Shown in pieces: positions 1 through 63,207 of a DNA stretch of 64,000 nt. The translations under genes were made by a program, and so were the position numbers. Under the pieces are notes generated by a model. That model made no database searches and was not told the DNA's origin. It saw only the letters and a list, made by a program, of their open reading frames with translations. The stretch lies in assembly GCF_031085175.1 (NCBI RefSeq), contig NZ_JAVHUY010000052.1, positions 1 through 64,000 on the forward strand, read 5' to 3'. The stretch's first letter is position 1. Each line of letters opens with the position of its first letter. This DNA comes from Phytohabitans maris. GTDB taxonomy: Bacteria > Actinomycetota > Actinomycetes > Mycobacteriales > Micromonosporaceae.

Positions 1-1917
1 CTAGGAAGGCGCTGAATATCGGCGTTCTTGAGGTTGGCGGTGGGGTGGGTGCCTGGGTTTGGCTGCCGGTGGGTTGGTTGGGTCGGGGGGGGGTGGTGGT
101 GCGGGTGTGGGCGCTGCGGGGGTCGCTTGGTGGGCTCTGTGGTGGTGTCTTCGGGCCCGGTGGTGGCTGGTCAGCTGGTGGCGAGGGTCCATCCGTTGGT
201 CCAGTGCAGGCCGCGGTTGATCAGGTTGCGGAGGTTGAGTGCGGCGGTGCGTTGTTTGAGCCAGGTGTGGTTGGCGTGGATGCCGTGGTAGCGCAGTTTG
301 AGTCGGCGTCGGCCGCGGCTGGCTACTTGGGCGATGACGCGTTCGATGTTGGGTCGGTGTCGGCGGTAGCGGTCGCGGAGGGTGGGGTCGGTTCGCCAGT
401 CGGCTCGGGCTTGGCGTAGTAGGGCGTCGTGTTCGTTGAGTACGATCTTGCGGCCGGTCTTGGATTTGGTGCACCGGGTCTGTAGTGGGCAGGTGCGGCA
501 CCGTGTGCCGAAGTCGGCGGTGCGGGTGGCCGGGCTGATCGGTCGGGTGTGTGCGGCTGGGCAGGTGACGGTCTGCTGGTCGGTGTTGACGGTGAAGTCG
601 TCGATGGTGAAGCCGCCCCGGATCGGGGATTGCGATGGTTTGGGTTTGATGATCGCGGTGTGTCCGGCCTGGTCGAGGGCGTTGCGTAGGTCGCCGGTGC
701 CGTAGGCGCAGTCGCCGTACCATTCCTGAGCGGTCTGGTCTGGGCGGCCGGTGGGCTGCTCGGGCCCGGTGTCGTCGTCGCCGACGCCGGCTGTGGTGTT
801 GGGTTCGCTGTCGCTGTCGCTGTTGGGTTCGCTGTTGGTGTTGGTGGGGCCGTTGGCGAGGAATTGTTGCGCGACGGCGGCGTCGGCGTTGTCAGGTCCG
901 CAGGCTTTGGTGAGTTGTTCGTCGGTGATGATGCCGGTGTCCGGCTCGGCGGCGATGTGGGCGCGGTAGCCGTCCCGGCGGGCCTGCGGCGACTTGCGGG
1001 TGTGTCGGGCCTGTGGGTCAACGGTGGAGATGACCCGGTCTTCGGCGACCTTGCGGGCGATCCGCCACCGCCCGTCAGTGCCATCGGAGCCGTCGGCCGG
1101 TTCCACGTCCTGCCCGGCCACCAACGCCAACAGCGCGACCGCCTGCTGCGCGGGCTCGTCGAGCTTCGCCTCGGCCAGCGCCGCGACCAGGTTGTTGGCG
1201 TCGTTGACCAGCGTCGAAACCAGGGCCTGTTTGGCATCCGGGTCGTCCCAGTCGATGTCCGGCTTTCCCGGCCGGCTGTAGTCGTGCCCGCCACACACGG
1301 CCGCGATCTGCTCCGCAGCGCCGGGCACCACCCGGGCCACCCGGCGGATCTGGGCGATCAGTTGGGTGATGGTGTCCTGGGTGGCGACCGCGTCGTCCAG
1401 GATCGTGGAATCGACCGCCCGCCGCCGCCGTCCGCGCAGAATCCCGGTCGCCTCGACCACCTGCCGGACCGCGTCGTTGACCCGGTACGGGCGATCCGAG
1501 TTCGCCAACCGGCGCCGCCAGTACGTCAACGTCGACGGGTGGAACCCCTTGTCGTCCAACGCCAGCCCGCAGGCGACCTTCCACCGCAGGTCACACCGGG
1601 CCGCCTCGGCAGCCTCCGCGTCGGAGTAGTCCAACAACGTCTGCAACGTCAAAATCGACGCCGCCACCGACCCCGGGATCGACCGCCGCCCCTTGGCCGA
1701 TGGGAACAGATCCGCGAACAACTCGTCCGGGAACACCCGACCCCGACAGTCCGCCAGAAACGCGTACATGCTCCCGGCCGGAACCAGATGACCGACCAGA
1801 GCGGCCGCGTCCAACAGCCGCCGGTCAGCACGCTCTACACCCTGCACCCAAACATCTTCACATATCAATACAGACCAGGACGGAAGACATGCCCACCATT
1901 ATTCAGTGGACTCCTAG
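1..1917 (-). mobile_element. IS1182-family insertion sequence, complete
   Basis: The element carries one transposase gene on the minus strand. Its ends are imperfect inverted repeats: bases 1-24 and the reverse complement of 1894-1917 share CTAGGA, then CTGAATA at the same offset, then GG. CTAG at 1-4 and 1914-1917 is either a 4-base target duplication or part of the ends; the two cannot be separated because CTAG is its own reverse complement. The right flank (1914-1941) is exactly the right half of a palindromic repeat found whole elsewhere in the window, so the element jumped into the loop of such a repeat. The left half should lie just before base 1. Bases 5-170 hold no gene. Confidence 0.85.
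171..1847 (-). CDS. IS1182-family DDE transposase
   Basis: This is the transposase that moves the surrounding element. The DDE triad can be placed: the first Asp in AVDSTILDDA, the second in WYGDCAYGTGD and the Glu in NIERVIAQ near the C-terminus. The N-terminal stretch HLVPAGSMYAFLADC is typical of the family. A cysteine cluster (TRCRTCPLQTRC) lies in the C-terminal third, and an acidic Ser/Asp/Pro-rich linker (about residues 330-355) separates the halves of the catalytic domain. The GTG at 1847 is chosen because the family normally begins a few residues before the LVPAGS motif; a TTG at 1868 would add seven residues. The frame is intact, so the element may be active. Confidence 0.85.
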   Translation of the reverse strand: MQGVERADRRLLDAAALVGHLVPAGSMYAFLADCRGRVFPDELFADLFPSAKGRRSIPGSVAASILTLQTLLDYSDAEAAEAARCDLRWKVACGLALDDKGFHPSTLTYWRRRLANSDRPYRVNDAVRQVVEATGILRGRRRRAVDSTILDDAVATQDTITQLIAQIRRVARVVPGAAEQIAAVCGGHDYSRPGKPDIDWDDPDAKQALVSTLVNDANNLVAALAEAKLDEPAQQAVALLALVAGQDVEPADGSDGTDGRWRIARKVAEDRVISTVDPQARHTRKSPQARRDGYRAHIAAEPDTGIITDEQLTKACGPDNADAAVAQQFLANGPTNTNSEPNSDSDSEPNTTAGVGDDDTGPEQPTGRPDQTAQEWYGDCAYGTGDLRNALDQAGHTAIIKPKPSQSPIRGGFTIDDFTVNTDQQTVTCPAAHTRPISPATRTADFGTRCRTCPLQTRCTKSKTGRKIVLNEHDALLRQARADWRTDPTLRDRYRRHRPNIERVIAQVASRGRRRLKLRYHGIHANHTWLKQRTAALNLRNLINRGLHWTNGWTLATS

Positions 1918-1941
1918 CGACTTCAAGGGAGCTTCGATCAC
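1914..1941. repeat. Right half of a 54-bp palindromic repeat, split by the IS
   Basis: CTAG followed by CGACTTCAAGGGAGCTTCG and ATCAC matches the right arm of the palindromes at 39606, 44099 and 46555, with one change and one missing base. The matching left arm is not present on the other side inside the window because the window starts at the IS edge. Confidence 0.8.
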
Positions 1942-33304: not shown

Positions 33305-33610
33305 AGATCGTGGTATGCAACCGCCCCTGTGCGGGCGGATCCGTACCACGATCTGCTGGGACGGCCCGCTCTCGAGCGGTGAGCTCGGGTCGAGGCCCGC
33401 GCGCCCTGCCCCTCGGCAGAGCCCAGTCCATGATCGGCTCGGAGTCGGCTGGCCCGCCCGGACGGGGCCTGTCGGGGCCGGGTGGGTTGCGGTTGCCAGG
33501 CGCGGAGAGTGAGGCCGCGGGAACGCACCCCAAGAAAACGCTCCACTGCGCTCCACGTTTCCCCGGGGACCCCGCGCAACGGTCCGGACCACGACGGGCA
33601 TCGCGGTAGC
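33305..33610. repeat. Long intergenic repeat (GAGCTACCGCGACG family), copy 2, with hairpin
   Basis: The 579-base gap 33099-33677 has no credible gene. Bases 33305-33315 and 33344-33354 (AGATCGTGGTA/TACCACGATCT) pair, with a second paired layer CCGCCC/GGGCGG inside. Bases 33525-33577 are an inverted copy of 2016-2073, and 33580-33610 match the ends of the copies at 2300 and 42220. The left boundary is unclear; similarity to copy 1 (GCACAGACGGGGCAGC) begins near 33237. Confidence 0.6.
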
Positions 33611-39605: not shown

Positions 39606-39659
39606 GTGATCGAAGCTCCCCTCAAGGTGTTCTAGCGACTTGAGGGGAGCTTCGATCAC
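39606..39659. repeat. 54-bp palindrome, CTAG loop
   Basis: Two perfect 21-base arms (GTGATCGAAGCTCCC and CTCAAG, and their complement) surround GTGTTCTAGCGA. It lies between the PucR start and the end of the oxidoreductase pseudogene, 16 bases after the latter's stop, so it may also stop transcription. Confidence 0.85.
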
Positions 39660-44098: not shown

Positions 44099-44152
44099 GT
44101 GATCGAAGTTCCCCTCAAGTCGTTCTAGCGACTTGAGGGGAGCTTCGATCAC
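44099..44152. repeat. 54-bp palindrome, CTAG loop
   Basis: Arms of 24 bases with one mismatch enclose TTCTAG. It begins 8 bases after the lyase stop codon, the position expected of a terminator, and has no T-run. Confidence 0.85.
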
Positions 44153-46554: not shown

Positions 46555-46608
46555 GTGATCGAAGCTCCCGTCAAGTCGTTCTAGCGACGTGACGGGAGCT
46601 TCGATCAC
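46555..46608. repeat. 54-bp palindrome, CTAG loop, with compensatory arm changes
   Basis: The arm reads CTCCCGTCA where the other copies have CTCCCCTCA, and the opposite arm changes to match (TGACGGGAG). Pairing is therefore kept while the sequence differs. One mismatch remains next to the loop TTCTAG. Confidence 0.85.
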
Positions 46609-63153: not shown

Positions 63154-63207
63154 GTGATCGAAGCTCCCCTCACGTCGCTAGAACGGCATGAGGGGAGCTT
63201 CGATCAC
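63154..63207. repeat. 54-bp palindrome, CTAG loop inverted
   Basis: The arms share GTGATCGAAGCTCCCCTCA with the other copies; the loop reads CTAGAA instead of TTCTAG, so the centre is reversed. It lies between the convergent ends of devS and devR and may stop both transcripts. Confidence 0.85.

Follow-up and report, generated by a model that had tools for sequence, protein, structure and literature searches.

Target choice by insertion sequences

The window, meaning the whole stretch of 64,000 nucleotides analyzed here, opens with an insertion sequence whose right end abuts half of a palindrome that recurs elsewhere in the genome. This raised the question of whether the element enters the palindrome by its hairpin shape, by the sequence of its arms, or simply by the CTAG found at the insertion point. 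How some transposases pick hairpins is an unsolved question, and this genome offers occupied sites alongside intact ones, with duplications that match the loop exactly. We propose, with a probability of roughly 0.7, that this element (IS-A) and a second one from the same genome (IS-B) enter hairpin loops, duplicate the CTAG (IS-A) or the loop (IS-B) and keep the arms, the hairpin or its axis being captured at the apex.

Structure and family of the window element

The left end of the window comprised the following features.

1..4, no strand: CTAG, left copy of the 4-bp target duplication (start of contig C48; in other copies a palindrome arm and CTAG stand there)
5..1913, minus strand: IS-A, IS1182-family insertion sequence of 1909 bp (inverted ends; identical copies with different flanks)
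5..18, no strand: left terminal inverted repeat GAAGGCGCTGAATA (inverted-repeat comparison, 14/18 complementary counting CTAG)
171..1868, minus strand: IS1182 transposase gene, 565 aa from TTG, start codon uncertain (NCBIfam NF033551, Pfam)
1900..1913, no strand: right terminal inverted repeat TATTCAGTGGACTC (inverted-repeat comparison)
1914..1917, no strand: CTAG, right copy of the target duplication (sequence)
1918..1941, no strand: right arm of the interrupted family-A palindrome (sequence and palindrome comparison)

The transposase scored 292.5 bits against NCBIfam NF033551 (IS1182, cut-off 270), the sole cut-off passed, IS5 models falling far under their own, and matched DDE_Tnp_1_6, DUF772 and DDE_Tnp_1 in Pfam. 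The terminal repeats were identical at 10 of 14 positions (14 of 18 with CTAG included), the ends CTAG-GAAGGCGCTGAATA and TATTCAGTGGACTC-CTAG forming inverted repeats. IS1182 members have terminal inverted repeats, a single transposase gene and about 1.7-2.0 kb, and IS-A agreed with this in its 1909 bp and in the one open reading frame covering most of it. Judged from these sequence features, IS-A belongs to the DDE insertion sequences of the IS1182 family, and its target duplication is the 4-bp CTAG. The entry of the initial annotation spanned 1-1941; the boundaries of the element needed correction, since the CTAG copies (1-4 and 1914-1917) and the arm (1918-1941) lie outside the element proper (5-1913), while the CTAG and right arm that it had described at the right flank were found at just these positions.

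Copies and junctions of IS-A

Base 1 of the window is base 1 of contig C48 (9.87-Mb genome in 95 contigs), the left flank being absent from the window. Copies 100% identical to IS-A were found at the ends of contigs C44 and C52 and at the far end of C48, and the end of C78 consisted of the left 211 bp of IS-A with a one-base difference in a G run. Five junctions were thus recovered, three left and two right. The left junctions read GTGATCGAAGCTCCCCTCAAGTCGTT-CTAG and then the element on C44 and C78, and GTGATCGAAGCTCCCGCCAAGTCG-CTAG and then the element on C52. At the two ends of C48 the element was followed by CTAG-CGACTTCAAGGGAGCTTCGATCAC and by CTAG-CGACTTGACGGGAGCTTCGATCAC, the former being the right flank in the window, where CGACTTCAAGGGAGCTTCGATCAC is the right arm of the 54-bp palindrome. 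All five junctions corresponded to a family-A palindrome broken at its loop CTAG, which confirmed an insertion in the apex, and the left flank expected from the initial annotation, an arm ending in the loop, was present at all three left junctions. The sites were distinct, as the DNA beyond the arms differed between junctions, and none of the recovered junctions placed an identical copy outside a family-A palindrome in this genome.

The arm was followed by TT-CTAG on C44 and C78 and directly by CTAG on C52, indicating that IS-A inserted both ways round with respect to the TTCTAG/CTAGAA loop. Arm sequence could not match the three left flanks to the two right ones, arm bases 16-18 being variable, and the right junction partner of C52, expected as CTAGAACGAC, was not found in the assembly. 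The inverted copies at 1-1917 and 67794-69710 of C48 stand at the two extremes of this 69.7-kb contig, their right ends facing inward, which explains the contig break; recombination between them could invert the 69.7-kb segment.

The family-A palindromes

Four intact copies were present in the window.

39606..39659, no strand: family-A palindrome, loop TTCTAG (palindrome comparison)
44099..44152, no strand: family-A palindrome, loop TTCTAG (palindrome comparison)
46555..46608, no strand: family-A palindrome, loop TTCTAG (palindrome comparison and folding)
63154..63207, no strand: family-A palindrome, loop CTAGAA (palindrome comparison)

The 9.87-Mb genome contained 219 full copies at up to two mismatches, and a reversed control pattern gave 0. 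Loops, gene context and CTAG were counted in a 1.25-Mb sample of the genome, where CTAG was present in 33 of 48 copies. Most loops were TTCTAG or CTAGAA. Folding of a family-A copy gave a z of about -10 and the arms covaried (e.g., at position 7, 36 copies had G-C and eight had A-T). According to a simple gene caller, copies were intergenic, directly 3' of genes and typically about 12 bp from the stop codon, and convergent genes flanked 22 of 46. Overlap with the stop codon, apparently via the TGA of GTGATC, was seen in several. From sequence, these palindromes have the appearance of bidirectional terminators in many copies or of REP-like elements; the window contained no Rfam match.

No family-A palindrome was found in the five congeners examined. 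Two loci of another genus of the family (L090 and L091, genomes G084 and G090) displayed a few palindromes sharing the outer arms GATCGAAGCTCCC, with a different core and loop. This presence, together with the absence from the five congeners, suggests that the repeat has spread patchily or horizontally. The possibility that family-A palindromes are terminal repeats of a longer element was rejected in the sample, where the unpaired halves were degenerate copies, matches by chance or junctions of IS-A.

CTAG as a target of IS-A

IS-A might recognize CTAG only, a motif that is rare at 74% GC, with hairpin loops at gene ends as a large and harmless supply of it; landing in palindromes would then follow from supply and selection. 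Relatives of IS-A found elsewhere among the actinobacteria agreed with this explanation, nearly all having CTAG at both ends (the exception, L059, apparently had CTTG), mostly without a palindrome, and so did a 73% relative on contig C16 of this genome, which sits at a plain CTAG. Palindromy around CTAG at 33 relatives' sites with CTAG at both ends (32 from other genomes and the one on C16) averaged 4.03 of 8, against 3.68 for shuffled sequences, a marginal excess only, and a second scoring of 26 sites displayed no difference. A search for palindromes in general by the IS-A subgroup was not upheld by this test on relatives. The expectation that other copies would share the target therefore held for identical copies, none of which lay off a palindrome, and not for the C16 relative or those at ordinary CTAG sites in other genomes, from which it follows that the IS-A subgroup needs CTAG but no palindrome around it. 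The subgroup targets CTAG in general, and since the sites of the relatives were barely palindromic, CTAG supply combined with gene-end location is a serious null for IS-A.

Under that null, the supply itself can be counted. In the 1.25-Mb sample, 33 of about 296 non-coding CTAGs (11%) fell in family-A loops, a share rising to 20% among CTAGs near gene 3' ends, which favors recognition of CTAG only. Even so, finding 3 of 3 IS-A copies in palindromes would be unlikely (P 0.001-0.008), with P about 0.0014 under a null of non-coding CTAGs and P = 0.008 when the null was the CTAGs lying no more than 60 bp from the 3' end of a gene. Taken from the window element alone (n = 3 copies), a hairpin preference beyond CTAG is suggestive, not conclusive.

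Some relatives of IS-A had recurrent targets. L053 and L169, from two genera, had CTAG beside the same sequence, CCTAACAAAG[C/T]ACTA-CTAG; L162 and L165, from one genome, had it beside the same repeated 30-mer; and that of L057 lay in a short tandem repeat. These targets are possibly ends of other mobile elements.

A second element in family-B hairpins

Searching the same genome with the IS1182 model revealed IS-B (about 309.7-309.8 bits, NF033551 cut-off 270), whose transposase was 28% identical to that of IS-A. IS-B occurred at eight contig ends, and all eight flanks carried GATCNTGGTA and then GCCC, directly before the element end GACTCTGCTGGCGAATT. Matching 6-bp duplications (CGATAG, TTGTAG, ACGCAG and CTGGAG) paired the flanks into four copies, with the empty sites TGCCC[CGATAG]GGGCA, TGCCC[TTGTAG]GGGCA, GGCCC[ACGCAG]GGGCG and TGCCC[CTGGAG]GGGCA and outer arms near GATCGTGGTAC / GTACCACGATC. 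The duplications differed from site to site and always equaled the 6-nt loop (4 of 4 copies). An intact twin of one target (C1:365137), with near-identical flanks, had a single TTGTAG, and this paralogous empty site indicates that the loop is what was duplicated.

The window held one intact member of this repeat family.

33306..33353, no strand: family-B palindrome, 48 bp, 6-nt loop (palindrome comparison and folding)

Family B had 29 copies in 1.25 Mb, 21 of them between convergent genes. These hairpins were often nested in a longer inverted repeat, CCTTGATCG...CGATCAAGG, and at times occurred as pairs.

The use of a repeat family as a landing site, raised as a possibility in the initial annotation, was strongly supported by this second IS1182 element. 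Recognition of CTAG only leaves IS-B unexplained, with duplications that vary per site yet always match the loop, and we regard that explanation of the IS-A insertions as possible but doubtful.

Hairpins entered by relatives of IS-B

For relatives of IS-B carried by complete Streptomyces and Rhodococcus plasmids, the boundaries were set from the terminal repeats, and 10 external sites were scored, the B-clade plasmid loci L218, L221-L223 and L225 being left out of the statistics as they had no terminal repeats by the method used. With the axis set on a 6-nt loop, 6.9 of the first 10 arm positions were paired (6.6 when a spurious second boundary in L219 was counted), against 2.9 in shuffled and 3.4 in cross-paired flanks. 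The target duplication was exactly 6 bp at five of the ten sites and 9 bp at one; four sites had no exact duplication of at least 6 bp, which counts against duplication of the loop as a rule. The hairpins had no sequence in common with family B (e.g., AGTCCCCGTCA[GCAAAC]TGACGGGGACT and TCCCCCTC[GTGAAC]GAGGGGGA), which favors structure rather than sequence as the guide in the IS-B lineage. On two Streptomyces plasmids (L212 and L216), two different B-clade elements were in the same hairpin, TCCCCCTC-loop-GAGGGGGA, which suggests a Streptomyces repeat family as a landing site.

These sites bear on whether it is the arm sequence of the repeats that the transposases read, as site-specific elements do, and not the hairpin shape. 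In this genome each element was restricted to a single family of repeats whose outer arms are conserved, as such reading would predict; yet relatives of IS-B used hairpins without common arm sequence, and relatives of IS-A occurred in genomes devoid of family-A palindromes, such as the congener G321, making arm reading improbable. The complete plasmids bear equally on the assembly. All IS-A and IS-B copies lie at contig ends and one IS-A right junction is missing, as would happen if the junctions were artefacts at collapsed repeats, but unique DNA flanked each arm, the 6-bp duplications of IS-B matched in reciprocal pairs and relatives on complete plasmids displayed the same geometry. An assembly artefact is accordingly very improbable.

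Proposed mode of insertion

Capture of a hairpin at its apex, the preferred reading, can be put as a sequence of steps. At five junctions, the ends of IS-A were joined across the loop CTAG of a dispersed hairpin, with 4 bp duplicated and both arms in place. The transposase would capture the extruded hairpin, or a symmetric target, at the apex, and strand transfer would take place at the two loop edges. The IS-B lineage appears to be guided mainly by structure and the IS-A lineage chiefly by CTAG, CTAG-bearing hairpin loops appearing to be favored in this genome. As the hairpins are at gene ends, insertions would be tolerated there, and post-insertion selection may be part of the enrichment at these hairpins. 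This offers a reason for mobile elements to gather in REP-like palindromes at gene ends. In a broader form, for which we see even odds, IS1182 transposases would pick targets by DNA shape, joining to an extruded hairpin at the loop edges and duplicating the loop exactly, with two lineages having split two REP-like families between them as safe havens at gene ends. The occurrence of two IS1182 lineages in two dispersed hairpin families makes the question of structure versus sequence directly testable.

Comparison with known systems

CTAG-targeting elements are known in the IS5 superfamily; a short CTAG-like duplication is common to them and IS-A, whereas the IS-A transposase was above the IS1182 cut-off only. 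The literature search returned no paper on extragenic palindromes in Micromonosporaceae and no IS1182 paper describing a CTAG duplication.

REP-targeting has been reported for IS1397, ISKpn1, ISPsy8, ISPa11, ISPpu9/10 and ISRm19/22, from the families IS3, IS110, IS4, IS256 and IS5 (PMC1525189). IS-A and IS-B resemble them in that their copies are in dispersed extragenic palindromes of the host (5 of 5 and 8 of 8 junctions, respectively), but IS1182 is not among the reported families, and the repeats and hosts differ (PMC1525189).

Some IS1182 members target palindromes, according to Siguier et al. 2015 as cited in PMC5678879 and PMC4923244. IS1272 and TnSha1, IS1182-family elements of staphylococci, target inverted repeats with loops of 4-6 nt and no common sequence, including transcription terminators, and delete the stem-loop or part of it without target duplication (PMC5678879, PMC4923244); duplication of the loop only was drawn by Wan et al. 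as a hypothetical 'pathway c'. IS-A and IS-B share with these two elements the transposase family and the inverted-repeat target, found at all their junctions. They differ in that their targets are dispersed REP-like repeat families and that no stem-loop was deleted, both arms being kept with the CTAG or the 6-bp loop on both sides, in contrast with the stem-deleting mode of IS1272. The duplication of CTAG or loop with intact arms, in two REP-like families and by two IS1182 lineages of one genome, is new with respect to the published stem deletion.
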